A stretch of DNA of 64,000 bases, from NCBI RefSeq assembly GCF_002355635.1, contig NZ_AP017558.1, positions 496,001 through 560,000 of the forward strand, written 5' to 3'. The DNA is from Halopenitus persicus (GTDB lineage: Archaea; Halobacteriota; Halobacteria; Halobacteriales; Haloferacaceae). Below are positions 5,890 through 20,779 of this stretch, piece by piece. The notes under the pieces are model-generated. The model saw only the letters and a program-made list of their open reading frames with translations, was not told where the DNA came from and did no database searches. Each line of letters opens with the position of its first letter. The stretch's first letter is position 1. The position numbers and the translations under genes were made by a program.

Positions 5890-8800
5890 TCAGAACACCG
5901 TTTCCTCCAGTCGGTCCACGAGCGCGGGGTGGTCGAACACGCGCCGGACCGCGTCGAGCATCCAGGTGGCCACCACGAACTGGACGCGCTTCTCGGTCCG
6001 CGTCTCCCCGGGGTTGCTCGACAGGTGGTCCCTGATCCGGTCGTACTGTTCGCGGACCGGCGAGACGGTCGACACCTCCCCGCGCCGCTCGCTCAGGAAC
6101 GCCTCGGTCTCCTCGAGCCGGTCCGCCGTCAGCCCGCGGTGGTCGGCACGCTCGGCCGCCACCACCGCGATCAACTCCTCAAGCATCGCAGTTCGTTGGT
6201 CGTCGCCCTGCCCCGAACGCCGGCTGCCGGCGCGTCGGCCGGACCCGCGGCCGGACCGTCCGTCGGCCCCGCGACCGGAGCGCCGGTCGCCACGACCACG
6301 TCGTTCGTCGCCGCTCCCGCCGTCGCCGCTCCCGCCGTCACCGCTTCCGCCGTCGCCGTTCTCGAGGACCGCCGGATCGCCATCCCAGCGGATGCGCTCG
6401 TTGCGCAGCGCGGAACACGCGCCGAACAGGTCGACGTTCTGCTTCGTCGTCATCGCGTCGCGGGTGTACTCGATCGCGTCCGCCACCGCCGAGAGGACGG
6501 CCTCCGTCACCTCGTCGGGGTCGACGCCGTGTTCGACGAACAGCAGCCCCTGGTCGGGGAACGCCGAGAGGAGATCCAGCGTCGCCGTGAGCACGCTCCC
6601 GTAGTAGTACTGGATCGCGCCGTCGCGGTTCGACCGGGTCAGGTCAGCGATCTCCTCGTTGAGCTCGTCGATCCGGGACCGGTACGGCGCGAGATCGAAG
6701 TCGAAGTTCCCGTCGATCGAGACGCGCCGCGGCTCGTCGGGCACCACCGCGACGTCCTCCTCGTCGACGTCGACGATCGCGTCCGAGGTGAACGACGCCG
6801 TGACCCGGTATTCCCCGATCACGAGGTCGTCGATCGTCACCTCCCCGTCCGCACCGCTGCGCGTCTCCGTGCCGCCGTCGTTGGCGCGTGGGAACTCCCC
6901 GGCCGGCCGGATCGACACGGGAACGTTGCCCGCGGCTTGCCCGTCGATGCTGGTTTCGACGGTGAGCGTGCCCGTCTTCGGCGCCAGCCCGATCGACTGC
7001 TGGAGGCCCGTCTCGGCGGGCTCATAGCGGTCGTGTTCGACCTCGAGGGTCACGGAATCGGGGTCGACCGACGGCGGCAACTCGATGGTCGTCGTGCCGT
7101 CATGGTCGGTTCGCAGCTCGTCGCCGTCCACGTCGGTCGTGATGACGTCCTCCGGCGTCAGACAGCGGATCTCCGCGTCAGCGATGCGTTGGTCCTCGTC
7201 GCGGGCGCTGTGGACGGTGATCGTCCCCTGCTGGGGCGGCACCTGCACCCGGATCGACTCCTGGCCGCTCGGGAGCGTCGTGCCCGTGTCGCTCCCGTCG
7301 ACGCTCACGTAGTACTGTTGGCTCGGGACGTGAACCTCCCCGCCGCCGGCGATCTGCTTCTTTTGCGGCTTCATCGCGTTCGCCATCCGGCCGGTCGGCT
7401 CGAAGACGACGGTTCGCGTCGCGTCGACGGGGTCGCCGTTGGCGTCGACGAGGGCGACGTCGACCGACGTCATGCTGCTCCCGCCGCCGGGCGACCCGGC
7501 CCGACCGCGTCCGCCGGAACCGTCGGATCCGTTTGAGTCGCTCGAGCCGGTCAGTTTGAGGACGACGATCCCGCCCATAACGACCACGGCGAGGAAGGCG
7601 ATGATGAACTGCCCGATCATCGAGCTGAAGAACGACGTCGCCATCCCGACCAGCCCGAGTCCTCCACCGACGCCGCCGGTGAGGGGTTCGACGTCGGTGT
7701 CGGCGTTCGCCGACCCGCCGATCGACGCGGCGGCGGTCGCGTTCTCGTCGGTGACGATCAACAGCTCGTGGCCGCCGCCGGTGAGCGCGTAGCCGGCCTC
7801 CGGGAACGCAAGCGTTCCGTTCTCGGCGTCCGCGGGGACGTCCTCGATCAGGACGAGCTTGCGTGATCCGTCGTGCGCCCAGGAGACGTAGACGTCGACC
7901 GGCAGCGACGAGGCCTGACTTCCGTTCCCGTCGCTCTCGTTACCGCCCCCGGCCGTTCCGCTCTCCCCGAGCGCGTCGCCGAGTCCGTCGACGGTGACGA
8001 TGGAGGTGTTCGCGTCCAGGCTTGCGTCGAGCACCGAGCTCTCGATCGTCGTCGTCCCCGAGCCGATCGTCCCGCCGTCGCCCTCGATCGTGACCGTCGC
8101 CTCGGAGCCCGGTGCGCCCAGCACGAGGTTCCCGGCGGAGAACCGTATCTCCCCGCCGGTCTCGGCCGTGACGCGGCGCGTCGTGGTCGGGGCCCGGTCG
8201 CCGATCGTTCCCTCGATCGTGACGACGTACTCGTCCCCGCTCACGATCAGCGGGTGCATCACCGCGATCTCGTCGCCGTTCAAAAGCACGCGCGGATCGC
8301 CGGCGATGGCCGACGGCGAAACCGTGACCGGGGTACCGACCCGGGGAGCGTCAGCCGCGTCGGCGGCGCCGATCTCGACGTCCTCGCCGGTCCGTATCAG
8401 CGAGTCGAAGCCCGACGAACGGACGAACCGGAGCCGGTCCGGCCCGTCGTCGCCCGCCGGACCGATCCGGGTCGCGTAGACGTTCGCGTTCTGATCGCCC
8501 GCCGAGAGGGAGAAGAGCAGGTCTCCGTCGAGTCCGACCGACTGCTCGATCGGCACGACGAGCCGGTTCTGATCGTCGAAGGCGGCGCCGTCGCTCACGA
8601 GGTCGACGTACCACAGGTCGCCCTGGCCGTCGCCGAGCAGTTCTCCGTCGGCGCTCCGCGTGACCTCGACCGTCGCGTCCGAGAGGTCGCCGAAGGACCG
8701 CTCGGTCAGGTCGACGTCGTAGGTGTAGATTCCGTTCTCCGTCTCCTCGAATTCGAGGTTCTCGTAGGGTTCGGCGTCGGCGACCGTGACGGTCACGTTC

Positions 8801-9117
8801 GTGTCGTTGCCCTCGAAGGCGGCCTCGGAGACGGAGACCTCGAGGGTCGTTCCGTCGAGCGTGAACGAGAGGTTCGACCCCCGATACGTGTCGTTCGCTT
8901 CCACGGCTGTCGGTCCCGGAGTGCCCGTCGCGTCGATGGCTGCGATGTCGGCCGCCCCGACCGACGATCCGGTCGGTCCGGCCGCCGCTCCCGGGACGGG
9001 CGATCGATCGCCCGCGTCGACGCCGAGCGCCGCTCCGGCGACCGGCGCGATCGACAGCGCCGCGACGACCAGGAGGGTGAACGCGACCGCGTCGATGCGT
9101 GTCCGGGTCCGCGTCAT
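5890..9117 (-). CDS. Membrane-spanning protein with large external and large cytoplasmic halves
   Basis: 1075 residues. Signal peptide about 8-30; an extracellular half (about 31-480) of beta-rich, acidic sequence; one transmembrane helix at about 499-522 (FIIAFLAVVVMGGIVVLKL); then some 550 residues predicted cytoplasmic. The inner half shows successive beta-sandwich segments like CarboxypepD_reg/prealbumin domains (about 550-820, e.g. TITVHSARDEDQRIADAEI and DGEVTIDDLVIGEYRVTASF), a helical region, a GDGGS tandem repeat near 905 joined to an Arg/Gly-rich linker, and a C-terminal helical domain. It directly abuts the upstream tubulin-like gene with no gap. Its topology makes it the best candidate for a physical link between cytoplasmic GTPases and external subunits. 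Function unknown. Confidence 0.8.
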   Translation of the reverse strand: MTRTRTRIDAVAFTLLVVAALSIAPVAGAALGVDAGDRSPVPGAAAGPTGSSVGAADIAAIDATGTPGPTAVEANDTYRGSNLSFTLDGTTLEVSVSEAAFEGNDTNVTVTVADAEPYENLEFEETENGIYTYDVDLTERSFGDLSDATVEVTRSADGELLGDGQGDLWYVDLVSDGAAFDDQNRLVVPIEQSVGLDGDLLFSLSAGDQNANVYATRIGPAGDDGPDRLRFVRSSGFDSLIRTGEDVEIGAADAADAPRVGTPVTVSPSAIAGDPRVLLNGDEIAVMHPLIVSGDEYVVTIEGTIGDRAPTTTRRVTAETGGEIRFSAGNLVLGAPGSEATVTIEGDGGTIGSGTTTIESSVLDASLDANTSIVTVDGLGDALGESGTAGGGNESDGNGSQASSLPVDVYVSWAHDGSRKLVLIEDVPADAENGTLAFPEAGYALTGGGHELLIVTDENATAAASIGGSANADTDVEPLTGGVGGGLGLVGMATSFFSSMIGQFIIAFLAVVVMGGIVVLKLTGSSDSNGSDGSGGRGRAGSPGGGSSMTSVDVALVDANGDPVDATRTVVFEPTGRMANAMKPQKKQIAGGGEVHVPSQQYYVSVDGSDTGTTLPSGQESIRVQVPPQQGTITVHSARDEDQRIADAEIRCLTPEDVITTDVDGDELRTDHDGTTTIELPPSVDPDSVTLEVEHDRYEPAETGLQQSIGLAPKTGTLTVETSIDGQAAGNVPVSIRPAGEFPRANDGGTETRSGADGEVTIDDLVIGEYRVTASFTSDAIVDVDEEDVAVVPDEPRRVSIDGNFDFDLAPYRSRIDELNEEIADLTRSNRDGAIQYYYGSVLTATLDLLSAFPDQGLLFVEHGVDPDEVTEAVLSAVADAIEYTRDAMTTKQNVDLFGACSALRNERIRWDGDPAVLENGDGGSGDGGSGDGGSGDERRGRGDRRSGRGADGRSGRGSGRRAGSRRSGQGDDQRTAMLEELIAVVAAERADHRGLTADRLEETEAFLSERRGEVSTVSPVREQYDRIRDHLSSNPGETRTEKRVQFVVATWMLDAVRRVFDHPALVDRLEETVF

Positions 9118-10344
9118 TCACTCCTCCAGGAACCTGATGTACTCGTCGAGGTTTTCCTCGATCCGGTCCATCTCCTCGGCCGCGATCGACGCGTTGCCGA
9201 GCCGGCGGCCCCGCTCGAGCCGGGTCTTGTGCGTCTCGAAGGCGTCCCAGGAGCGGTCGAGCAGCGGCTCCAGGTCGAACCCGCCCAAAAGCAGGAGGAC
9301 GTCGACCTTGCCGCGGGCGCCGTCGGCGATGGAGACCGTCGACATCCCCGGCGCGTTGATCCCCCGCTCCCGCTTCCAGGACTCGAAGGCGGAGTTGACC
9401 GCGTTCTCGCTGAAGTCCTCGTCGTCGGCGAGCCCGCGGGGAACCCGCACGATCGCGAACGCCGTCTTCGTCGTCGAGACGTCCATCGGCACGAAGGCGT
9501 TCTCCGCGGCCTTCTCGAACATGTACTCGATGTCGTAGACGTTCGCGTTCATGTCCGTCGCGATGGCGGGCGTGAAGTGGTAGGCGCCGATCTGGGAGGG
9601 GACGCTCACGTAGTCCTGCACGTCGATCACGCCCTGGGTCTCCCGCCCCGCGCTGATCATCAGGTCGAACGCCTCGATCAGTCGCTCGTTGACGACGTCG
9701 TTCGGATGGCTATGTGCGTCGTCGTCGCCACCCATCTGGGCGATGTGGGTGTTCGCGCCAAGCAGGACCATGTCGGCGTTCTGGGTTCCGTCGGGCATCC
9801 GGAGGAGTCGAGAGAGTCCACAGACCGCGTTGAACTGCTGTTGGGGCGGCTCGTCCTCGTAGGGCCAGACGCCGATCGCCGCGTGGATGACGTCCTCCAT
9901 CCACGGCTCGTAGGCGTCGCTGTCGCTCCCGTTCTTGAACGTCCGGATCGTGTAGGGGATCGACCCGTTGCCGGTCCCGCCGCCGAGCGTCGCGATGTGC
10001 ATGAACGCGTCGGCGGTCGGCACCACGCCGCGGATCGAGCGGATGATCTCGTCGATGCTCTCCTCGGCGAGCCGCTCGCCGTCGGCGAAGACGTTGCCCG
10101 CCCCCTCGTCGCTGCCGAAGACCATCGCGTGGTCGCCCAGCGAGTCGGAGTCCCCGAGGTTGTTCTCGAGGCGGTCGATCGTGTTCCGGATGTCCGTCCG
10201 GTTCGTGTTCATCACGAGGATCCGGTCCTCGACGCCGGGGTTCTCCCGGCGGTTGAAGAACTGCGAGGCGATGCGGCCGCCGCCCTCGCCGGATGCGATG
10301 ACTGCCCAGCGCGTGTACGTGTCGGTTCGTTGTTGTCGTGACAT
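9118..10344 (-). CDS. Divergent tubulin/FtsZ-superfamily protein (tubulin-like 3)
   Basis: 408 residues. Residues 12-24 (RWAVIASGEGGGR) form a Rossmann first strand with a glycine loop equivalent to tubulin/FtsZ T1. The signature GGGTGNG lies at 121-127 after strand FMHIAT. A later strand ends in ADMVLLGANTHI, matching the FtsZ strand that carries the nucleotide-contacting Asn; NERLIEAFDLM is placed like the T7 synergy loop, though the catalytic acidic residue is not obvious. It lacks the sequence features of FtsZ1, FtsZ2 or CetZ. The C-terminus is helical (about 345-408), useful for partner binding. No membrane segment. GTP binding is likely; polymerisation and hydrolysis are inferences. The gene sits between two membrane proteins of the same operon. 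Confidence 0.82.
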   Translation of the reverse strand: MSRQQRTDTYTRWAVIASGEGGGRIASQFFNRRENPGVEDRILVMNTNRTDIRNTIDRLENNLGDSDSLGDHAMVFGSDEGAGNVFADGERLAEESIDEIIRSIRGVVPTADAFMHIATLGGGTGNGSIPYTIRTFKNGSDSDAYEPWMEDVIHAAIGVWPYEDEPPQQQFNAVCGLSRLLRMPDGTQNADMVLLGANTHIAQMGGDDDAHSHPNDVVNERLIEAFDLMISAGRETQGVIDVQDYVSVPSQIGAYHFTPAIATDMNANVYDIEYMFEKAAENAFVPMDVSTTKTAFAIVRVPRGLADDEDFSENAVNSAFESWKRERGINAPGMSTVSIADGARGKVDVLLLLGGFDLEPLLDRSWDAFETHKTRLERGRRLGNASIAAEEMDRIEENLDEYIRFLEE

Positions 10345-10358
10345 GCTCTCTCCTTCGG

Positions 10359-12437
10359 TTACGCCACCTTCGTCACTTCGGTCTCATCGCACTCGACGTC
10401 CGAGGCGACGGGCGATTCCTGGAGGGTGTCGACGATCAGCTCGTCCGGCGCGGGCACCGCGAGATACCGGTTGCGGATCTGCGTGTAGGGGATCGACTCC
10501 CCCTCGGCGAGGTTGTGCCGGACGATGTTCGCGATCCGGTTGCCGAACTGCTCGCCGTCGTAGACCAGGACCTCGCCGTCGGCGCGCGTGGCGGTCAGTC
10601 CCTCCTCCTCGGCCCACAGCGCGAGCAGACACGGCAGGAACCGGTCGCTCATCGGGAAGTCCATCGACGTCGAGAGGTACTCCGTCTCGCCGTACTCGGA
10701 CGCGAAGAGGTCGCGGGCGTCCGGCAGCGCCTCGCGGGCGTCGTCCTCGATCCCCGAACAGACCTCCTCGCGGAGCTCGATCTCCGGGATCGTCGCCTCC
10801 AGCTCCAGGTCCTCGTCGACGACGACCTCGCGCTCGACGGCCCCGTATCCCTCCTCGGTCGTCGTGACGGCGAGGTCGTACTCGCCGTAGGGGACCTCCT
10901 CGAAGGTGAGGACGTCGAGGAGGTGGGTCTCGATCGTCCGCGACTCCTCGAGCGAGCCGCCCGCGAGCGAGACGTCGATCCGCCGTTTGGGCCCGCCCTC
11001 GTCGAAGCCGGCCTGCACGGCGACGTCGTAGGCCTCGCCGAAGTCCTCGGCGACGAGCGCCGGCGTCGCGGGCTCGTAGCTGACGTCCTCGTGCAGATCC
11101 GCGTACAGCTCCAGGAACGCGGCCGTCTGCTTGACGTGGAGGTCGTCGCCCGCCACCCGGCCGGTCGTGCGCAGCGTCTCCGTGATGTCGTCCTCGACCG
11201 TCCCGTACGCCTCCGCGACGGCCGCCTTCTCCTCGACGGCGTCGATCGCCGCCGACAGCTCGCCCGCGGCGTTGAGCCAGACGGACCGGTATGCGTCGAG
11301 GTCGCTTGCGGCCCGCAGGTCGCTCACGTACGACTCGTCTGCCGCAGACTGGTACTCGTAGTAGTCGTCCGGCACGTCAGCGTTCGCGAGGATCCGGAGG
11401 TGCTCGTCGAGCTCCGTGCTCATCGACTCGATCATCTCCGTGCAGATGGAGCGCGTTTCCTCCGTGAGCTCACGGACCCGCGCCATATCGAGCGCGGAGT
11501 CGACCGCATCGAGTTCCTCGTGAACGTCCTCGAGGTCCTCCAGGAGGGTCGGCGAGACGTAGTCGGTCACCACCGACGAGGCGGCCGTGTCGACGAACGA
11601 TTCGAGGCTCGACCGCTCGCTCTCGAAGTCCGTCGAGAGGTCGCGTTCGAGCTCGTCGCGCGCTTCGAGCAGCGCGTCGGCCACGGCGTGATACTCGCCC
11701 GCGGCGAGCGCGTCGTCCGCCCGACCGACGCCCCGATCGATCGGGTCGAGGGGGGCATCGGTCGCCTCGGCGATCGCGTCGAGCTCGGCGGCGGCCTCGT
11801 CGATCGCTGCATCCATCGCCGCTTCGGCGTCGTCGAGCGCGTCGAGCAGCGCCCCGAACGAGTTCCCCTCGGGCGCCTGCGGGTCCCGAACGCCGTCGAC
11901 CAGCCCGGCGTCCTGGAGGCGACGCTGCGCGTCCGCGCAGTCGTCGAGCTTCGTGTTGACGTGCGTCCGTGCCGAGTCGGCGATCTCCGATCGCAGCTCG
12001 GAGACGCGGTCCTCGAGCCGTTCGAGATCGCGGACTTCGCCGGTCCCGGTCACCTCGAAGCGGTTCGCCGCCCGGTCGAACTCGACGCCCGACTCCGCGA
12101 GCTGGTCGAGCAGATACGACACCTCCTCCTCGATCGGGTCGGTGTCCCACGCCGACAGCTCGCCGGCGAGCCGGTCGTACTCACGGAGCAGGTCCCTGAC
12201 GTTTTCGCCGACGCGTTGGGCCTTCCCCTCGAAGTACTGGGTCGTCCCGCCGCCGCCGGTCGCGCCCGACTGCCGGGCGTAGACGATCGCCGCGCCGATC
12301 ACGACCGTCGGGATCCCGACGATCAGGGCGTAAAAGCCGATCTCAGAGCCGAAATACCAGAACGCGCCCAACCCGAGGACCGTCGTCACCAGCACGATGC
12401 CACCGATCTGTAGCGTGTATCGAACGTTGTTCTTCAT
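10359..12437 (-). CDS. Membrane-anchored coiled-coil protein with cytoplasmic beta-sandwich
   Basis: 692 residues. Two N-terminal transmembrane helices (about 9-28 and 33-53) with basic flanks place both ends in the cytoplasm. A long Glu/Asp/Ala/Leu-rich helical region (about 70-470) with heptad-like spacing follows. Residues about 485-559 resemble a CarboxypepD_reg/prealbumin-like beta-sandwich (RRIDVSLAGGSLEE, EVPYGEYDLAVTTTEEGY), recalling the cytoplasmic half of the 1075-residue protein two genes on. A compact C-terminal domain (about 560-692) has a winged-helix look, but this is weak. The start overlaps the previous stop as ATGA. I infer a cytoplasmic adaptor between membrane and GTPase. 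Confidence 0.78.
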   Translation of the reverse strand: MKNNVRYTLQIGGIVLVTTVLGLGAFWYFGSEIGFYALIVGIPTVVIGAAIVYARQSGATGGGGTTQYFEGKAQRVGENVRDLLREYDRLAGELSAWDTDPIEEEVSYLLDQLAESGVEFDRAANRFEVTGTGEVRDLERLEDRVSELRSEIADSARTHVNTKLDDCADAQRRLQDAGLVDGVRDPQAPEGNSFGALLDALDDAEAAMDAAIDEAAAELDAIAEATDAPLDPIDRGVGRADDALAAGEYHAVADALLEARDELERDLSTDFESERSSLESFVDTAASSVVTDYVSPTLLEDLEDVHEELDAVDSALDMARVRELTEETRSICTEMIESMSTELDEHLRILANADVPDDYYEYQSAADESYVSDLRAASDLDAYRSVWLNAAGELSAAIDAVEEKAAVAEAYGTVEDDITETLRTTGRVAGDDLHVKQTAAFLELYADLHEDVSYEPATPALVAEDFGEAYDVAVQAGFDEGGPKRRIDVSLAGGSLEESRTIETHLLDVLTFEEVPYGEYDLAVTTTEEGYGAVEREVVVDEDLELEATIPEIELREEVCSGIEDDAREALPDARDLFASEYGETEYLSTSMDFPMSDRFLPCLLALWAEEEGLTATRADGEVLVYDGEQFGNRIANIVRHNLAEGESIPYTQIRNRYLAVPAPDELIVDTLQESPVASDVECDETEVTKVA

Positions 12438-13552
12438 AGGAGCACCTCCAGGAGCGTCGATCCGAGCAGGACCGACAGCACCGTTCCGACGATGACGCCG
12501 AGGGCGGCGATGGCGAACGCCTTCTTCAGATCGCTCCAGCCGTACTCCACCGAGCTCCGTCGCCGGCGTTCCCGGCGGATCGACTCGAGGTCACGTTTCG
12601 CGATCCAGTTGCCGACGCCGCCGCCGACCGCGCCGAACAGGAGGAACGACCCGAGCAGCGCGCCGATGGCGGTCAGCCTCGCGGTGCGGGCCTCCGCTTT
12701 GGCGGCGGCGAGGTAGCGATCGACCGACGCGTCCAGCGTCGCGAGCGTCCGCTCGTGGTGGGCTTCGTGCCGGACGAACCCCTGTGCCGCGCCGGCGGTC
12801 CCGTCCTGGGCGGCGAGGAAGAGCGCGGCGGAGAGGTCCTCGCCGGTGGCGTTGACCTCGCGTCGCGTCTCGCTCGCCGCCGTCACGTTGACGTCTGCGC
12901 TCGTCGGCGACGACGAGTCGGCTGCCTCCGAGAGGGTCGACCGGAGATCCGCCGCCCCGGTCAGCGACCGGTTGTACGCCGACAGCTCCGCCGCGATCGG
13001 CCCGTCGTCGTCGCTTCCCGCCACGAACCGCAGGGTGACCGGATCGTCGAGATACGACAGCGTCGTCCGCTGCGGCGTCACGATCGTCAACGTCGGCCCC
13101 TCGACTCCCTGGCGTTGCTCCTCGAACGTCGCGATGTCGCCCTCGAAGGCGACGTCCCCGGTCCGAACCGTGTAGTGATAGTCGCCGGACCCCTCGATCG
13201 ACAGTTCTTCGGCGTCCGCAAGGGTCCACGCGTCACCGGCCGGCTCCTCGCCGCTTCCCCCACAGAACACGACGCGTGCCTCCGTTCCCGGATACAGTGC
13301 GACCGTGTCCCCGGGGCCGATCACGTCGCCGTTCTGGAGCAACAGCAGCAATGAGAACTCGCTCGTCGCCTCGTCGCTCGAGCACGCCGTGTTCGCATCC
13401 TGATAGCCGACGTCGGCCGCGACGCCGGCGACCGCGCCGCCGGTCGCCAGGGCGACGACGAGCCAGCAGGCGACGAGGCCGGCCAGGACCCGGGATCGCG
13501 TCGCACTCATCGGTCCGTCAGTCGGACCCGCCGGTCCTCCGGTCGCACTCAT
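12434..13552 (-). CDS. Exported protein with two C-terminal transmembrane helices
   Basis: 372 residues. The N-terminal signal peptide (about 18-45 from the chosen start, ending AVAGVAA) is followed by an extracellular domain (about 46-285) containing a Cys in TACSSDE and another in VVFCGGSG, possibly a disulphide. Then come a transmembrane helix (about 292-315), a strongly basic cytoplasmic loop (KRDLESIRRERRRRSSVEYG) and a final helix (about 345-370). The ATGA overlap with the upstream gene supports start 13552; ATG 13510 would give a cleaner signal peptide and remains possible. It also overlaps the downstream gene by ATGA. No known family; envelope subunit of the cluster by context. Confidence 0.75.
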   Translation of the reverse strand: MSATGGPAGPTDGPMSATRSRVLAGLVACWLVVALATGGAVAGVAADVGYQDANTACSSDEATSEFSLLLLLQNGDVIGPGDTVALYPGTEARVVFCGGSGEEPAGDAWTLADAEELSIEGSGDYHYTVRTGDVAFEGDIATFEEQRQGVEGPTLTIVTPQRTTLSYLDDPVTLRFVAGSDDDGPIAAELSAYNRSLTGAADLRSTLSEAADSSSPTSADVNVTAASETRREVNATGEDLSAALFLAAQDGTAGAAQGFVRHEAHHERTLATLDASVDRYLAAAKAEARTARLTAIGALLGSFLLFGAVGGGVGNWIAKRDLESIRRERRRRSSVEYGWSDLKKAFAIAALGVIVGTVLSVLLGSTLLEVLL

Positions 13553-13806
13553 CGGTCCTCCACCTCCTGATGGTACGCGCGGAGGCCGCCGATCACCGAG
13601 CCGGCCGCGATCCCGAATCCGGCACCGGCGCCGACCAACAGCGGCAGCTGCTCGGCAAGGGCGACCGCGGCCCGGGCCGTCGCCAGCCGCGAGGCGGGGT
13701 CGCTGCCGGCCGCCAGCGGAACGAACAGCAGGACCGCGACGACGGCTGCGCTGCCGAGTACGATCGCGATGGCGAACTGGTAGGCGGGACGGTCAGGCCG
13801 CTTCAT
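13549..13806 (-). CDS. Small two-transmembrane protein (85 aa)
   Basis: Two hydrophobic helices (about 10-33 and 53-76) separated by a short Ala/Arg-rich loop, with a basic N-terminus (MKRPDRPAYQ) and a charged C-terminus (RAYHQEVEDR). The gene overlaps the upstream tubulin-like gene by 14 bp and the downstream gene by 4 bp, so it is firmly embedded in the operon and unlikely to be spurious. No catalytic motif. It could be a membrane receptor or chaperone for the tubulin-like protein encoded immediately before it; that is inference from overlap alone. Confidence 0.72.
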   Translation of the reverse strand: MKRPDRPAYQFAIAIVLGSAAVVAVLLFVPLAAGSDPASRLATARAAVALAEQLPLLVGAGAGFGIAAGSVIGGLRAYHQEVEDR

Positions 13807-14971
13807 ACGTCTCTGCTATCTCCTCGATCTCCCGGATCCGGTCGAGGTCGGTTCGCTCGAACGTGTACACCGTCGTACACGACACGAGGTTGCGGCTCGT
13901 GGGCACCATTCCGAGGTTGACTTCCGAACAGTGCTCGTTCAGTCGGCGACGGACCTCCGAAATATCGATCCGATACTCGGGGTCGGCGATGTACTGCCGG
14001 GGCGCACGGACGTGGCCGATCGCCTTCTTCGCGTCCCCGAAGGTGACGTCGTCGACGCTCTGTTTGGCCTGTGCGAGATACGCGAGCTCGGCCGCGTCGA
14101 CCTGCTGGTCGCCGATGAACGGGAGGAAATATCCCGGCAGCGACTTCGTCATCTCGATCGACCGGCCGATCGTTCCGTACCCCGGCTCCCCGTCGGGACC
14201 GGCGCCGAACGACAGCGAGGTGACGATGTCCTGAATGTCGATGATCGGCGCGTCGATCTCGTCGTACTCGCCGGGATCGATCCGCTCGACGACGGGGCCC
14301 GACACCAGGTCGACGACCGACCCGGCGACGTACTCGTTGTACTCGGCGAACCGGCCCTCGGCGGAGTCCTCGTACCCGAGCCGCTGGTTGTCGACCAGCA
14401 GGACTCCGTCGACCGTCTCCTCGAGCCGGTCGAGCCCGTAGACCGCGTTCGAGGCCTGCCGACCGGCGCTTATCGTCTCCTCCTCGTCGTCGCGTACGTG
14501 GACCGACTCCTGCGTGTTCGGCACCACGGCGACGGCGATCACCTTGACGTCGCCGGCCGCGTACCGGCGGATCGCGTCCACGACGTGCGGGGCGATCCCG
14601 CAACCCGTGCCGCCGCCGAGCCCGAGAAAGACGAACGCGAACGGCACGTTGCCCTCCTCGCCGAATCGCTCCTCCAACATCGGCACGAGCTGCCGGCCGT
14701 GCCGTTCCATCACGTCGTTCGCGCGTCGCGGTCGTCGTCCGAATCCGCCGGTGACGACCTCCTCGAACCCCGCCTGGGTCCCCGGGACCAGTCCGTCGGT
14801 CTCCGAGACCCCTATCCACTCGTCGTCGTCGATGTTGGAGAGGTTCTCGAGGTCGCGCACCGTGGAGTTCAACGCGAGCGGTGCCGCTTCGATGCGGATG
14901 CCCTCGTGGGCGAACACCTCGTCCACCAGGGCGCTGCCCGCCTGTCCCGTACCCACGAATAGATACACCAT
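13793..14971 (-). CDS. Divergent tubulin/FtsZ-superfamily protein (tubulin-like 2)
   Basis: 392 residues and the most canonical of the three. The N-terminus MVYLFVGTGQAGSALVDEVF gives strand 1 and the T1 glycine loop (7-13). FVFLGLGGGTGCG (113-125) carries the tubulin signature at 119-125. VKVIAVAVVPNT (142-153) matches the strand after helix H4, DGVLLVDNQRL (188-198) matches the FtsZ strand ending in a base-contacting Asn, and YNEYVAGSVVDLVSG (211-225) occupies the T7/H8 position. The C-terminal domain ends near residue 380 with no extended tail. It resembles CetZ in spacing, but the CetZ/FtsZ T7 signature (NxDFxD) is absent. Cytoplasmic GTPase; filament formation is inferred. A TATA-like element 40 nt upstream suggests its own transcript start. 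Confidence 0.88.
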   Translation of the reverse strand: MVYLFVGTGQAGSALVDEVFAHEGIRIEAAPLALNSTVRDLENLSNIDDDEWIGVSETDGLVPGTQAGFEEVVTGGFGRRPRRANDVMERHGRQLVPMLEERFGEEGNVPFAFVFLGLGGGTGCGIAPHVVDAIRRYAAGDVKVIAVAVVPNTQESVHVRDDEEETISAGRQASNAVYGLDRLEETVDGVLLVDNQRLGYEDSAEGRFAEYNEYVAGSVVDLVSGPVVERIDPGEYDEIDAPIIDIQDIVTSLSFGAGPDGEPGYGTIGRSIEMTKSLPGYFLPFIGDQQVDAAELAYLAQAKQSVDDVTFGDAKKAIGHVRAPRQYIADPEYRIDISEVRRRLNEHCSEVNLGMVPTSRNLVSCTTVYTFERTDLDRIREIEEIAETYEAA

Positions 14972-15105: not shown

Positions 15106-16611
15106 TCACCCACGGAGGCTTCGCAACATCACGCTGTACTGGTTCTGGTCGTAGAGCCCCTCGACGTGATCGATGACGGCCTCCGTCACCGTACAGATCC
15201 CGGCGGCTCGATCCGGCTGCCCGGCGTTCAGCAGGTTCTCGGCTTCCGTGAGGTTCGTGTCCACGACCGACAGGAAGTACAGCGGGATGCTGTGGTTGTG
15301 GTCGGACCGTTCCTCGACGTAGTCGGTCTCGATCGCCTCGCGGCGGTCGCGAAGCGACGCCACGCGGTCCTCGACGGCCGCCGCGTCGGCTCCCGGTCCT
15401 GGGACCCTCCCGGTTCCGTCCAACGCGCCGAGGAGCTGACGGTCGTAGAAGGTCAGCTCCTCGTGGGCCGCGAACAGGAGGACGCGGTTCGTCTCGTCGA
15501 TCCGGTCGAGACGCGACTCGAGCTCCTCAACGCGCTCCGCCAGCCGATCCGCGACCGGCCCGTCGTGGTCCGCGAGCCGGTCGTCGATCGTTCCGACGAG
15601 CGCGGAGACGTCGTCCGGGTCGACGCTGTCGAGCATGCTTCGGGCAGTCGCCATCTCGTCGAGTCGCGTCGCCGCCGTCTCCAGCGCGTCTGCCGCCGGA
15701 TCGGTTCGACCCGCTTCGAGCGCCTCGAAGAGGTCGCGTGCCTCGCGCGACCGCGGCGTCGCGGACTCGCGGGCGCGCCTGACGGCGGTCCGTACGTCGT
15801 CCTCGCTGGCGTCCGTTTCGGTCGTCCCGTCGGATCGAGGCGCGTCGGGGTCCGCGTCCCGGGCGAACGATCCCCGGCTCGAGTCGGCGTCGAATCCGGA
15901 GTCCCGTTCGCGGACCTTCCGCGTCGCCTCGCGGACGCGGCGGTCGAGGTCGTCGTCCTCGTTCACCTCGACGTCGACCGCCGTGAGCAGCTCCGACACC
16001 GCCTCACGAAGTCGATTGCGATCGCTTTCCTCGCGTCGCCGTCGGCGCGACCGGGACCGTCGACGCTCGGCGAGATCGGCGACCGAGTCGATCCCGTCGG
16101 TTCGATCGACGACGTCGCTCGCGCGCTCGTGCTCGTCGAGCCGGTCGAGGGCCTCCCGCAGCGTCTCCTCGATCCGCGATTCGGAGGCCCGCCGTGCCCC
16201 GGCCAGCTGGTCGAGCAACCGGCTGGAGACCGACGCGCTGGGGCGGACGTCTCGGGAGACGCTTCGGGCCGCCTGCCGCACCGTTTCGGCCTCGGTTGCG
16301 TCCCTGTCGCGTCCGCCACCGCGACCCGGCGTCGCCGCCTCGATCCGGATGCGGTCCGTCTCGAGGGCCCGGCGCAGCGACTCGGCTTTCGAGACCGGGT
16401 CGGAGTCGGGCGACGGGCCCCGGGAGTCGGGGAGGTCGGCGGCGGACACGATCCGGTCGATCGACGTCCCCAGCGAATCGAGCCGTCGTTCGACGTCCGT
16501 CGCCGAGGGGGATGCGCCTAGCCGGTCCGCGATCCGGTCGATGTCGTCGCCGTCGTCGCTCGACCGGTCGAAGAGGCCGAGCAGCACGATCGGCAGGATG
16601 CTCGTCGTCAT
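15106..16611 (-). CDS. Helical/coiled-coil cytoplasmic protein of the tubulin cluster
   Basis: 501 residues, almost entirely predicted helical, rich in Asp, Glu, Arg and Ala, with a short hydrophobic start (MTTSILPIVLLGLF) that is too short for a secure transmembrane helix but could be a membrane-tethering amphipath. Highly charged Arg/Ser tracts occur around 195-215 ([14 protein letters not shown]). The C-terminal 100 residues (about 400-501) look more globular, with YFLSVVDTNLTEAENLL. It starts 6 bp after the zinc-finger tubulin gene, so the two are probably translated from one message. There is no known domain. By analogy with cytoskeletal systems it may be a GTPase-binding scaffold; this is inference. 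Confidence 0.75.
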   Translation of the reverse strand: MTTSILPIVLLGLFDRSSDDGDDIDRIADRLGASPSATDVERRLDSLGTSIDRIVSAADLPDSRGPSPDSDPVSKAESLRRALETDRIRIEAATPGRGGGRDRDATEAETVRQAARSVSRDVRPSASVSSRLLDQLAGARRASESRIEETLREALDRLDEHERASDVVDRTDGIDSVADLAERRRSRSRRRRREESDRNRLREAVSELLTAVDVEVNEDDDLDRRVREATRKVRERDSGFDADSSRGSFARDADPDAPRSDGTTETDASEDDVRTAVRRARESATPRSREARDLFEALEAGRTDPAADALETAATRLDEMATARSMLDSVDPDDVSALVGTIDDRLADHDGPVADRLAERVEELESRLDRIDETNRVLLFAAHEELTFYDRQLLGALDGTGRVPGPGADAAAVEDRVASLRDRREAIETDYVEERSDHNHSIPLYFLSVVDTNLTEAENLLNAGQPDRAAGICTVTEAVIDHVEGLYDQNQYSVMLRSLRG

Positions 16612-16617
16612 CGGCGT

Positions 16618-18291
16618 TCAGGCCATGTTCTCCCGGCCGAGACAGGAGAACAGGGGCTCGACGTACTCCCAGACCTCCCGGAGGTTCTCCGCCTGCTGAC
16701 TGTTCCCCTCCTTGATGTTCTTGGCGTGTTCGTACATCCGCTCGAGCGAGGGCATCCGCGGATTCCACAGCGTTCCCCACAGGTAGACGTCGTCGAGGTC
16801 GGGGGTGACGAGCTGTTCGACGTGGATGTCGACCGACTCGGTCCCCGGCTGGTTGGCGGCGTCGAGGAAGTCCTCGCTCGCGAGGATGTCCCGGGCGACG
16901 CCGTCGGAGACGAGCCGGGAGACCTCGCCCATCTTCCGTTCGGGACCGTACAGCAGGAAGGTACCGCCCCACGCCGTCTCGGGGTCGAACTTCGCGAGCC
17001 GGTTCTGATACAGCGCGTTCGAGATGAGCGTCTCCAACTGGGAGCGGTTGACCGTCTCGCCGCGAGCGCGCCCGAGCACCGGCGCGAGGATAACCGCCGG
17101 CCGGTGGTCGGCGTCGAGATCGAGCGGATACTTGTCCTCGACGGGGCGGAAGCTGTCCGCGACGTCGAAGACGTCGCCGTGGATCGACATCGACGCGTCC
17201 TGCTTGACGAACTGCGGCGTCGACGACATCGTGAACGCCTCGAGGAAGGCCACGAGCGGCCGGTTGAGGTCCGCGTAGTGGGGCGGGTTGTACTCCTGGA
17301 GCCCGTCGATCCGGGGCGTGATGTCCGCGCCGGCCGCCTCGAGCCGCTCGTTGTCGAACGGGACGATCGCGTCGACTGCGGCCGACATTCTGGCAAGCCC
17401 CACGACGCCGTTCACGCGCGCTTTTCCGCCCGACATCCCGTCGTTGCCTCCCTCGGAGGGGATCACGACGGCCGAGATGAGCGCCTTGGAGATGACGTAA
17501 TCGTTGTTGAGCACCTCCTCGCGGATCTTGCGGGCCAGCACCGGCGTGGAGCCGCAGCCGGTGCCCTTGGTGACGCTGTGGACGAACATGATCGCCTGCG
17601 CGTCCTGGATCGTCTGGGGGTCCATGTCCCACCGCTCCCGGAATGGGTTCCGGCCGTCCTCGAAGTCCCGCTCCATCACCTGTTTGCCGTGGTCCCACCG
17701 GCGACCCATCCCCTGGTAGCCGTGGGCGCCCTGGCCGATGATCGAATTCATCATCAGCTGCTGGCGCGAGTAGCCCCGCTCCTCCTGGGCGTAGTAGGTC
17801 TGTTCCAGCTCGGCGATGTTCGTGTTGAGGATGCCGTAGCCGGCCAGCCCCCCTTCCCAGATGAGCGCGCGATTCTCGTTGTTCCGGCGCAGCGTGTCCC
17901 GGCGCAACAACACCGCGTCGAGGATGTTGTTCCCCGCGCCGCCGACGCCGATCATGAACCACTTCTTCCCGTAACTGTCCTCGAAGTCGACGTCCGATTC
18001 GACGTCGGTCGGCGGATCGGGATCGGGGTCGGAACCCGACTCGGCGGGCGGGCCCGTCGGCGCATCGATGGGGTTCCCGGTCGCCGCCGACTCCGTCGTC
18101 TCGTCCGCGGCCGTATCCGTTTCCGTGCCCGGATCGATGACCGGGTCGCCGTCCTCGAAGAGCCGTTCGTACCGGTCGGCGTAGACCGCGCGGATCGCCG
18201 GCTGTTCGTCCCGGTGTGTGGCGAGAAGGTGCTCGTCGAGATCACCCTCCTCCCACTGTGTGTCGGATAGTGAGCAGATCTTACAGCGCAT
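16618..18291 (-). CDS. C2H2-type zinc finger fused to divergent tubulin/FtsZ-like GTPase (tubulin-like 1)
   Basis: 557 residues. An N-terminal zinc finger (C3, C6, H21, H26; CxxC-x14-HxxxxH) is joined by an acidic Pro/Ser/Asp linker (about 45-107) to a tubulin-fold core. KKWFMIGVGGAGNN (109-122) is strand 1 plus T1 loop; SVTKGTGCGSTP (239-250) holds a degenerate signature in which the first Gly of GGGTG is Lys; VDAIVPFDNERL (306-317) matches the FtsZ strand before H7; HYADLNRPLVAFLEAF (338-353) occupies the T7/H8 position and keeps an Asp. The C-terminal half is about 200 residues with no membrane segment. Spacing is larger than in FtsZ. Cytoplasmic; GTP binding likely. The finger could bind nucleic acid or protein, and I cannot tell which. 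Confidence 0.85.
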   Translation of the reverse strand: MRCKICSLSDTQWEEGDLDEHLLATHRDEQPAIRAVYADRYERLFEDGDPVIDPGTETDTAADETTESAATGNPIDAPTGPPAESGSDPDPDPPTDVESDVDFEDSYGKKWFMIGVGGAGNNILDAVLLRRDTLRRNNENRALIWEGGLAGYGILNTNIAELEQTYYAQEERGYSRQQLMMNSIIGQGAHGYQGMGRRWDHGKQVMERDFEDGRNPFRERWDMDPQTIQDAQAIMFVHSVTKGTGCGSTPVLARKIREEVLNNDYVISKALISAVVIPSEGGNDGMSGGKARVNGVVGLARMSAAVDAIVPFDNERLEAAGADITPRIDGLQEYNPPHYADLNRPLVAFLEAFTMSSTPQFVKQDASMSIHGDVFDVADSFRPVEDKYPLDLDADHRPAVILAPVLGRARGETVNRSQLETLISNALYQNRLAKFDPETAWGGTFLLYGPERKMGEVSRLVSDGVARDILASEDFLDAANQPGTESVDIHVEQLVTPDLDDVYLWGTLWNPRMPSLERMYEHAKNIKEGNSQQAENLREVWEYVEPLFSCLGRENMA

Positions 18292-18365: not shown

Positions 18366-18440
18366 GTCCCGTTGGCTCCCCGGCTCGTTCGTTCCGTTGG
18401 CTCCCCGGCTCGTTCGTTCCGTTGGCTCCCGACTCATCCG
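18366..18440. repeat. Three 25-bp tandem copies running into the stop codon of the upstream gene
   Basis: Units at 18366-18390, 18391-18415 (GTTCCGTTGGCTCCCCGGCT plus CGTTC) and a diverged 18416-18440. The last copy contains the stop of the 681-residue gene (minus-strand stop at 18434-18436). Each copy downstream of the gene retains a version of the gene's terminal sequence around the stop. Confidence 0.8.
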
Positions 18441-20479
18441 TACCGTTCCGTGAACCGCTCGCGAGCCGTTCGGATCGCGGTCGTCGCCTGCCGCTCGTCG
18501 GCGACGACCACCTCGAAGAACGCCGGCGGCTCGGGGTCCTGGAGATTCACCTCGCTCATCAGGTCCGACTGGTTGCGGAGGAACCGTTCCACGTTCGTGA
18601 GCATATCCGGATCCGCGATCGTCGGGGGGAGGTCGGCGATCTGGTACTGGACCCGTGCCCCGTCCGTGGACCGGGCGTGTTCCTCGAGTTCACGCAGGAA
18701 GTACAACGCGGCGTCGAGCACCTCCTCGGGCCGTTTAGCGGGGGCGTCCCGGTCGTCCCCGTCGGCGTCACTGCCGAGGGCACCGCCACGATCGGTCGTG
18801 CTGGGGTCGGCCGTCTCGCGGTCGGCGCTCCCGGCGACCCCCCGTCCATCCGATCCGTCCCCCGCGGACGTGCTTCCGGTCCCCGCGGACGTGCTTCCGG
18901 TCGCGCCGCCGGGACCGGTCGTTCCCCTCGTGCCGGTCGGCGAGTCGAACGCCGATCCGGTACCGTCATCCCCGTCGCCGATCCGAACCCTGTCGCCCTC
19001 GACGCTGACGGTGACGTCGTGTGCCTCGGCCATCGCCTGGGCGACGGGGGCGACCGCGTCCGGATCCACCGTCGTCGGAACGTCCACGCTGGAGCCGCCG
19101 TGTCGGACGCGGCCGTCGAGGGCACGGAGGAACTCCGCGGCCGTGACGAGGCGTTCGCTCTCCTCGTCGGCCCGGTCGAGCAGCCGCTCGCACTCGTCGA
19201 ACCCGCAGTCGTGGAGCGAGTCGGTGGCGTCGGAGAGCGTTCGCTCGATCGCGGTGCGTCCCGTGATCGACTCCACGCGGTTCTCGACGAGGACGCCGCG
19301 TGCGCTCGACCGAACCGACTCGGGGAGCCGGTCGAGCTGCTCCTCGACCGTCTCGAGCCGCGACCGAACGCGCTCCATCGTCGCGTCGGCGCGCTCCTCG
19401 CGGTCCGCGAGGAACGACTCGGTGCGGTCCAGGTGGGCGGTCGCCGCGCCGATCGCCTCGCCGACGTCGGGGAGGGGAGCACCGCTCTCGAGGCGGCGCT
19501 GGAGGACCCCGTTGAGGTCGTCGGTCCTGACGGCGTCGCCGTCGGGCGGCAGCGACACCTCGCGGTACTCCGCGGGGAGGTTCGCCAGGGTGTAGGCCCC
19601 GCCGTACCGCGATCGGACCGTGACGTCGCCGAACTCGGTGCGGACGCCCGAAACGACGCGTCGCCGGAGTTCGGACGCGATCCGGTCGACCTCCGTCTCG
19701 GGGTCGAGCGAGTCGACCCGCGATTCGAGGTTCGAGACCTCCTCCCGACGCCGGTCGGGGTCCTCGATCCGCTGGATGCGGTCGACCTCCGTGAGGAGCT
19801 CGTCACACCGGTCGTGGAAGCGATCGGCCGCCGATTCGGCCTCGCCGACGCCGGTCGGCGCGACCGTCTCGAGGGCGTCCAGCGATCCGATTCGCTCCTC
19901 GAAGGCGGTCTCGAAGCGCTCCCGGGCGTCGCCGATGCGCGCCTCCTGTTCCCCCAACCGACCGGAGGTCTCCTCGAGGACCTCCTCGGACCAGTCGTGG
20001 ATCCACGCGGCGGAGCCGACGAGCGCGGTCGCGATCACGGGGATGGCGAAGAAGCCGACGAGCCGTCCGGTCCCGACTCCCGACCCGAACAACGCCGAGT
20101 AGACGCCGAAGAACAACACGAGATAGAGGATCGACGCGAGCCCGGCCGCGCCGAACGCGAGGTCCCGGTGGTCGAGGACGATCATCGCGGCGCCCTGGAC
20201 GATCCACGCGATCGTGATGAGGACGAACAGCGCCGCGACGAGCGACGGCTGGTCCTTGAACACCTCCGCGGCCTGGAAGACGACGTCGATCGAGTAGATC
20301 GGGTCGAGCACGCCGCGGAGCCCGAGCGTCTCGGAGGTCCAGTCGAGCAGCGACAGGATCGTCTGCACGAAGGTCACGAGCAGCGGCACCCCGGCGATCC
20401 CCCACGCGACGATCGAGACGTCGAGGTCGTCGAGACCGGACCCGGAACCGATGTCGGCCTCGAGGTCGAGATCCGTCAT
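18434..20479 (-). CDS. Four-transmembrane protein with long cytoplasmic coiled coil (first gene of tubulin cluster)
   Basis: 681 residues. Four transmembrane helices at about 22-44, 80-102, 107-130 and 140-160 put both ends on the same side, most simply the cytoplasm. From about 163 to 480 the sequence is helical with heptad-like patterns (VRSRLETVEEQLDRL). A Gly/Ser/Thr-rich low-complexity linker (about 505-590) precedes a C-terminal globular segment (about 590-681, LDAALYFLRELEEHA to FFEVVVADERQATTAIRTA). The plan of membrane anchor plus cytoplasmic coiled coil parallels the 692-residue protein later in the cluster. A TATA box lies 27 nt upstream of the ATG, so the message is probably leaderless and starts the operon. 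No known family. Confidence 0.8.
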   Translation of the reverse strand: MTDLDLEADIGSGSGLDDLDVSIVAWGIAGVPLLVTFVQTILSLLDWTSETLGLRGVLDPIYSIDVVFQAAEVFKDQPSLVAALFVLITIAWIVQGAAMIVLDHRDLAFGAAGLASILYLVLFFGVYSALFGSGVGTGRLVGFFAIPVIATALVGSAAWIHDWSEEVLEETSGRLGEQEARIGDARERFETAFEERIGSLDALETVAPTGVGEAESAADRFHDRCDELLTEVDRIQRIEDPDRRREEVSNLESRVDSLDPETEVDRIASELRRRVVSGVRTEFGDVTVRSRYGGAYTLANLPAEYREVSLPPDGDAVRTDDLNGVLQRRLESGAPLPDVGEAIGAATAHLDRTESFLADREERADATMERVRSRLETVEEQLDRLPESVRSSARGVLVENRVESITGRTAIERTLSDATDSLHDCGFDECERLLDRADEESERLVTAAEFLRALDGRVRHGGSSVDVPTTVDPDAVAPVAQAMAEAHDVTVSVEGDRVRIGDGDDGTGSAFDSPTGTRGTTGPGGATGSTSAGTGSTSAGDGSDGRGVAGSADRETADPSTTDRGGALGSDADGDDRDAPAKRPEEVLDAALYFLRELEEHARSTDGARVQYQIADLPPTIADPDMLTNVERFLRNQSDLMSEVNLQDPEPPAFFEVVVADERQATTAIRTARERFTERYG

Positions 20480-20533: not shown

Positions 20534-20779
20534 TCACTCGTGGGCGGCGTCCCACTCCTCGGGCTTTCGCATGTTGCCGCACTCGTTGCACTCGATCCGT
20601 CCCATCGTGTCCATGGCGGTGTCGAGGCTCCCACAGTTCCCGCAGAGGAATCCCCAGCGGTCCTCGCCGCGCTCCGTGGCGTAGGCGATATAAAAAGGTC
20701 CCTCGCTTCCCCGGTCGCCGGCGGTACGATCGACGTAGACCCGATCGCCGTCGGGCGACGTTACGGCTTCACGTTCCAT
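20534..20779 (-). CDS. DUF5816 haloarchaeal zinc-ribbon protein
   Basis: 81 residues. A zinc ribbon is formed by FLCGNCGS (near 45) and ECNECGNMRKPEEW (near 64), followed by the family's C-terminal DAAHE. This matches the DUF5816 pattern I know from haloarchaea (YVDRTAGDRGSEGPFYIAYA, then GRIECNECGN). The biological role is not known. A TATA box (minus-strand TTTATATC within 20801-20810) lies about 27 nt upstream of the ATG, indicating leaderless transcription. It is not part of the tubulin operon, which has its own promoter 24 bp beyond this gene's stop. Confidence 0.88.
   Translation of the reverse strand: MEREAVTSPDGDRVYVDRTAGDRGSEGPFYIAYATERGEDRWGFLCGNCGSLDTAMDTMGRIECNECGNMRKPEEWDAAHE

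Follow-up and report, generated by a model that had tools for sequence, protein, structure and literature searches.

CetZ (Haloferax CetZ1, PDB 4b46; 3zid) is, like the zinc-finger tubulin that is the subject of this study, an archaeal GTPase of the tubulin superfamily, and its T7 acids and the asparagine of its helix H7 are matched in our protein. To our knowledge, no zinc finger has been described for CetZ. For Halobacterota, Santana-Molina et al. (2023; PMC9871819) described Halo.Tub as a CetZ-like group occurring in quasi-tandem multiple copies with coiled-coil neighbours; the main text of that paper makes no mention of zinc, and non-canonical members appear in Brown and Duggin (2023), likewise with no word on zinc. 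FtsZl1/Tubulin_2 (PF13809) is an FtsZ-like GTPase proposed to act in membrane remodelling together with partners (Makarova and Koonin 2010; PMC2875224); its extended coiled coil, its helical C-terminus and its vWA, GTPase and OmpA partners (PMC2875224) differ from the architecture of the zinc-finger tubulin. In Prosthecobacter (BtubA/BtubB) and in eukaryotes, more than one type of tubulin is made together, as in the gene set reported here, but these tubulins are not known to carry a zinc finger and have an intact T4 glycine loop, unlike the zinc-finger tubulin. We know of no AAA and envelope gene set of the kind described below for BtubA/BtubB or eukaryotic tubulins.

The window, i.e. the whole stretch of 64,000 nucleotides of Halopenitus DNA that was analyzed, holds the zinc-finger tubulin gene as the second of eleven genes on the minus strand, running from 20479 to 2243 in the order M681, zinc-finger tubulin, CC501, TUB2, s85, S372, C692, TUB3, P1075, P327 and P889, many of which overlap or abut (Table 1). 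Our main finding reaches beyond positions 16618-18291 and is a conserved operon with three tubulin-like GTPases; neither this operon nor the two other tubulin-like genes figure in the first-pass annotation of the finding. TUB2, whose best PDB matches are 3zid and 4b46, is the set member nearest to CetZ. Most of the remaining products are membrane or exported proteins according to transmembrane (TM) segments and signal-like starts predicted by hydropathy; C692 is conserved in all full loci, and the ectodomain of P889 gave weak, sub-cut-off matches to ASH and NEW3. Between the genes for M681 and the zinc-finger tubulin, at 18370-18430, there are about 2-3 direct copies of a unit of about 27 bases (ggctccccggctcgttcgttccgtt), which extend to the end of M681. 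Directly upstream of M681, and in the same orientation, lies a gene for a DUF5816 protein (20534-20779); the Halopenitus loci share this neighbor, and the more distant ones do not.

Table 1. Genes of the eleven-gene set and features of the zinc-finger tubulin, in window coordinates.
Feature	Positions	Strand	Remarks
M681, N-terminal multi-pass membrane protein with cytoplasmic part	18434..20479	minus	four predicted TM segments
Zinc-finger tubulin, ORF	16618-18291	minus	557 aa, ATG start
N-terminal C2H2-type finger and helical extension, residues 1-46	18154..18291	minus	ligands C3, C6, H21, H26
Linker, acidic and variable, disorder probable, residues 47-107	17971..18153	minus	composition, fast evolution
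Tubulin-like GTPase core, residues 108-557 and stop	16618..17970	minus	PF00091, profile matches, hhalign
T4 loop T-K-G-T-G-C-G, residues 241-247	17551..17571	minus	deviates from GGGTG[ST]G
T7 loop acids D376 and D379	17155..17166	minus	invariant (35/35); aligned with CetZ T7 acids
C-terminal peptide LFSCLGRENMA	16621..16653	minus	conserved
CC501, acidic, probably coiled-coil	15106..16611	minus	conserved position; no TM segment in the window protein
TUB2, CetZ-like GTPase, intact GGGTGCG	13793..14971	minus	PF00091, 46.7 bits
s85, small, two predicted TM segments	13549..13806	minus	
S372, exported-type: signal-like N-terminus, two C-terminal TM segments	12434..13552	minus	
C692, two TM segments at the N-terminus; long remainder acidic and probably cytoplasmic	10359..12437	minus	
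TUB3, third tubulin-like GTPase, intact GGGTGNG	9118..10344	minus	PF00091, 43.4 bits; conserved position
P1075, signal-like N-terminus, then ~470-aa ectodomain, TM segment at about 504-522 and ~550-aa tail	5890..9117	minus	
P327, signal-like N-terminus, ectodomain, C-terminal TM segment	4905..5888	minus	
P889, signal-like N-terminus, large ectodomain, C-terminal TM segment	2243..4912	minus	

The zinc-finger tubulin is a member of the tubulin/FtsZ superfamily above the curated cut-off of PF00091. Its core, which had already been recognized as tubulin-like in the first-pass annotation, contains Tubulin (PF00091) as its single Pfam domain at residues 113-318 (E 1.3e-12; 48.8 bits versus a cut-off of 33), and divergent homologues likewise score above the cut-off (44.6 and 36.9 bits). 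Profile searches returned BtubA, CetZ, FtsZ and gamma-tubulin, with 2bto and 7quq as the best solved relatives (E 4e-6), and hhalign aligned the core to a CetZ of the same genome across 372 columns, the T7 acids of the two coinciding. The AF2 model of the whole protein, built on an alignment of 3 near-identical sequences, reached a pLDDT of 30, too low for structural use. A long homologue was found in 37 of 392 genomes of Halobacteriales, the nearest named relatives being those of Halopenitus persicus (93% identical) and H. malekzadehii (90%); residue conservation was assessed in an alignment of 35 non-identical homologues with identities down to 31%. Since the open frame (562 aa) reaches only 5 codons further 5' and homologues start at roughly the same place, the ATG start is right, and the earlier concern that translation might begin downstream of the finger does not hold. 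At the other end of the protein, the peptide LFSCLGRENMA is strongly conserved among the 35 homologues (G552 and R553 invariant; L547, F548, L551, N555 and M556 above 90%) and may be a docking tail.

Homology of the core to CetZ along its length would suit an ordinary CetZ or FtsZ paralogue with an N-terminal tail of no special role. By PF00091 searches, the genome encodes nine tubulin-superfamily proteins, three of them in the present set. In the tubulin tree, which was built by a quick method, has long branches and leaves the mutual order of the clades unsure, zinc-finger tubulin, TUB2, TUB3, CetZ and FtsZ each formed one well-supported clade, so that the zinc-finger tubulin did not group with CetZ. 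It scored 29.5 bits against the FtsZ equivalog TIGR00065, for which 295.2 is required, and gave no match to PF13809 (FtsZl1/Tubulin_2). By these sequence tests, the protein belongs to the tubulin superfamily but outside FtsZ, CetZ and FtsZl1/Tubulin_2. Its own clade, apart from CetZ, FtsZ, TUB2 and TUB3, the retention of the finger ligands in all 35 homologues and the strictness of the partner set all speak against an ordinary paralogue, which we hold to be the least probable of the readings considered here.

The finger carries exactly the four ligands named in the first-pass annotation, in the pattern C-x2-C-x14-H-x4-H. Near the N-terminus of all 35 non-identical homologues, CxxC is followed by HxxxxH, with a C-to-H spacing of 14, 11, 9 or 12 residues; loss of these Cys/His residues in relatives, which would have spoken against the finger, was never seen. 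At the level of sequence, this amounts to two conserved cysteines and two conserved histidines with C2H2-like spacing. The CxxC...HxxxxH pattern is shared with C2H2 fingers (PF00096 and relatives), from which the zinc-finger tubulin differs in having a single, acidic finger with weak Pfam matches and a conserved helical extension behind it. The only Pfam match of the window finger reached 13.6 bits versus a cut-off of 30 for that family, the fingers of the other homologues scanned gave weak matches below the cut-off (E 0.005 or worse), and profile comparison with the PDB yielded weak matches to C2H2 fingers (KCMF1, ZNF423; E about 0.009). AF2 modeling of residues 1-50 with 3 sequences (pLDDT 77) placed helices at 15-25, carrying H21, and at 30-46; a beta hairpin was absent from the model, and Foldseek found no match for it. 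The finger is very likely a conserved metal-binding motif, while a classical beta-beta-alpha fold is unproven. A finger profile search of 20 genomes revealed no second copy.

The linker, described as disordered and acidic in the first-pass annotation, is acidic, low in complexity and variable (32-75 aa, 18-40% D/E in the 18 homologues measured), and its disorder is probable. In codon comparisons of 11 pairs, finger and core had low dN/dS values and the linker between them a clearly higher one, which points to purifying selection on finger and core and to much less on the linker. Finger, linker and tubulin core have proved to be a real and conserved architecture. Such a fusion had been called unusual, and no finger-bearing tubulin was found in the literature searched, nor was an archaeal zinc-finger tubulin found in titles and abstracts of open-access literature.

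Two roles had been offered for the finger, localizing the GTPase or binding nucleic acid, and the evidence weighs differently on them. C2H2 fingers often bind nucleic acid, and the set is plasmid-borne in Halobacterium salinarum R1 and a few other strains, such that the finger could bind DNA or RNA in a system that segregates a replicon or the nucleoid, as TubZ does for plasmids. Haloarchaeal proteins, however, are acidic in general, and so is this region: the net charge of finger plus extension is negative in 35/35 homologues (-2 to -11), and that of the ligand-bearing helix lies between -5 and +1. This favors protein docking over DNA binding, although in an organism with an acidic proteome the argument is suggestive rather than decisive. 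In the window's own genome the set resides on the main contig (2.97 Mb), membrane and exported proteins make up most of the partners, and no partner resembles a centromere-binding protein in Pfam searches. We therefore consider nucleic-acid binding and segregation very improbable. Localization of the GTPase is the better fit, because its gene adjoins that of the multi-pass membrane protein M681 in all loci examined, including two divergent ones.

The nucleotide site is altered in a defined way. The signature GGGTG[ST]G, which is a motif and not the Pfam criterion for PF00091, is broken in the T4 loop, where the first two glycines are replaced across the family and G-T-G-x-G is kept. The altered loop had been spotted before, with the lysine assigned to the first glycine of the motif; in fact Thr241 takes the first position and Lys242 the second. 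K242 is present in 34/35 homologues, and G243, T244, G245 and G247 are invariant. CetZ_a and CetZ_b, CetZ proteins of the same genome, have an intact GGGTGSG at the site where the zinc-finger tubulin has T-K-G-T-G-C-G. Also invariant among the 35 homologues are G115, G117, G118, A119 and G120 of T1 and the asparagines N314 (T6) and N343 (H7); D376 and D379, likewise invariant, align with the T7 acids of CetZ, which in the tubulin/FtsZ superfamily complete the GTPase site of the neighboring subunit. Helix H7 (YADLNRPLV...TMSS) presumably resembles that of eukaryotic tubulin, which we take as a lead. As for the suggestion that nucleotide use may be altered, a changed chemistry is possible, whereas decay of nucleotide use is unlikely, since the lysine is a fixed feature of the family and the key residues of T1, T6, H7 and T7 are invariant.

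In stacked tubulins, each subunit acts through its T7 acids on its neighbor's nucleotide, and the conservation of these acids here suggests filament contacts. This bears on the idea that the zinc-finger tubulin is a non-polymerizing, GTP-binding scaffold whose finger controls filaments of TUB2 and TUB3, an idea to which the family-wide exchange of Gly-Gly for Thr-Lys in T4 lends some weight, as the GGGTG loops of TUB2 and TUB3 are intact. The invariance of residues that act between stacked subunits argues in the opposite direction, as do two genomes that retain a divergent form together with M681, but without detected TUB2 or AAA ATPase, indicating that these partners are dispensable there. 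On balance, we judge a purely regulatory role unlikely, though deserving of more weight than the paralogue and segregation readings, and regard a filament-forming subunit as the preferred interpretation.

The gene order of the window recurs in 10 distant genomes, where s85, and in several of them S372, went undetected by sequence. Among plasmid-borne copies are those on PHS2 of H. salinarum R1 (OE_RS12075 to OE_RS12025) and on a Natrinema plasmid. In two divergent genomes (G199 and G006), M681 and the zinc-finger tubulin alone were found of the set, and this pair is the core linkage. Beside the zinc-finger tubulin gene, the two divergent loci (L051, 3929-7312; L052, 4065-7241) encode a large protein with a weak beta-propeller-type match and a second protein with a long helical region, which may represent a pared-down form of the system. 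An apparent second TUB3 copy in two genomes was an artefact of overlapping loci.

In the other genomes, the set is followed by a convergent operon for x385, x338, x224, a CDC48-like AAA ATPase and a beta-propeller protein of the PQQ type that bears CARDB-like repeats. The same x385-x338-x224-AAA-PQQ operon is present in the window's genome, displaced by about 260 kb (L094, 10464-17925). Next to the AAA gene, x385 and x338 are conserved in nine other genomes, and x224 was detected in five. No significant family match was obtained for x385, x338 or x224, and PDB sequence searches found nothing for M681, x385 or x338. Near the displaced operon (L094, 5160-7481; about 241-243 kb of C1 in this genome) there are two further CetZ-like genes, whose T4 loops are altered to GGGSGSG and GSATGSG.

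Of 392 genomes, which are not independent of one another, 35 carried the AAA ATPase (E of 1e-100 or lower), and these were precisely the 35 with a close zinc-finger tubulin; TUB2 was present in all of them and in 2 more. Genomes with the set come from five families, and the tree requires 8 family-label changes against a minimum of 4, which indicates transfers between families. Together, the co-occurrence of AAA and TUB2, the five-family spread and the transfers are strong evidence of one functional unit. Patchy presence (37/392 genomes), between-family transfer with plasmid location, and AAA and beta-propeller partners would also be expected of an accessory system for defence or conflict in which tubulins happen to be employed. 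The tested products, however, gave no PADLOC match apart from generic AAA-domain matches for the AAA ATPase and, for x338, a very weak one to DrmD, no relatives turned up in phage records or viral contigs, and the large ectodomains suggest a structural role; a defence function hence seems improbable to us. PHROGs searches also gave no match.

Halo.Tub also has some tubulin-like blocks, and its published description is compatible with the proteins of this set (PMC9871819). In the sections consulted, that description includes neither a membrane or surface gene set nor an AAA partner. Halo.Tub may overlap this locus and may well include one of its three tubulins. For H. salinarum, cetZ5 has been assigned to VNG6260G (PMC7439475). 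Identity of cetZ5 with the zinc-finger tubulin was not supported, as a protein search gave no match on pNRC200 of strain NRC-1. That replicon carries an isolated tubulin/FtsZ family gene outside the gene set (L102, 9556-10641), possibly cetZ5.

We regard it as an even call that the zinc-finger tubulin is a distinct haloarchaeal GTPase with a docking finger and, together with two other tubulin-like subunits, part of a dedicated, membrane-attached cytoskeletal system, the anatomy of which is well supported. The sequences themselves show the conserved finger, the conserved GTP-binding and T7 residues, the linkage to M681, the collinear set and the co-occurrence with the AAA ATPase, whereas the mechanism is an inference. 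In such a system, the three GTPases would form GTP-dependent filaments, possibly mixed ones, in which the T7 loop of each subunit would stimulate its neighbor. The finger, on its flexible acidic leash, would link the filament to another protein, for which the cytoplasmic part of M681 is the likeliest candidate, although this choice of partner is a guess. The AAA ATPase may extract or remodel subunits, and the filament might, via P1075, P327, P889, S372 and C692, organize or move a surface structure or shape the envelope. Of course, membership in one operon need not mean membership in one complex. The more encompassing proposal of an undescribed, horizontally transferred, envelope-linked machine, comprising three tubulin-like GTPases (one tethered by a zinc finger and bearing the loop lysine), surface proteins and AAA-driven recycling, is a tentative one that falls somewhat short of an even chance.

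Clear multi-subunit systems are rare among the prokaryotic relatives of tubulin, and the present set can be put to the test in a familiar laboratory organism, H. salinarum R1, which carries it on plasmid PHS2. Its analysis could reveal how archaeal tubulins are tethered, whether mixed filaments form, and whether a lysine can stand in for a glycine in the phosphate loop of a tubulin.
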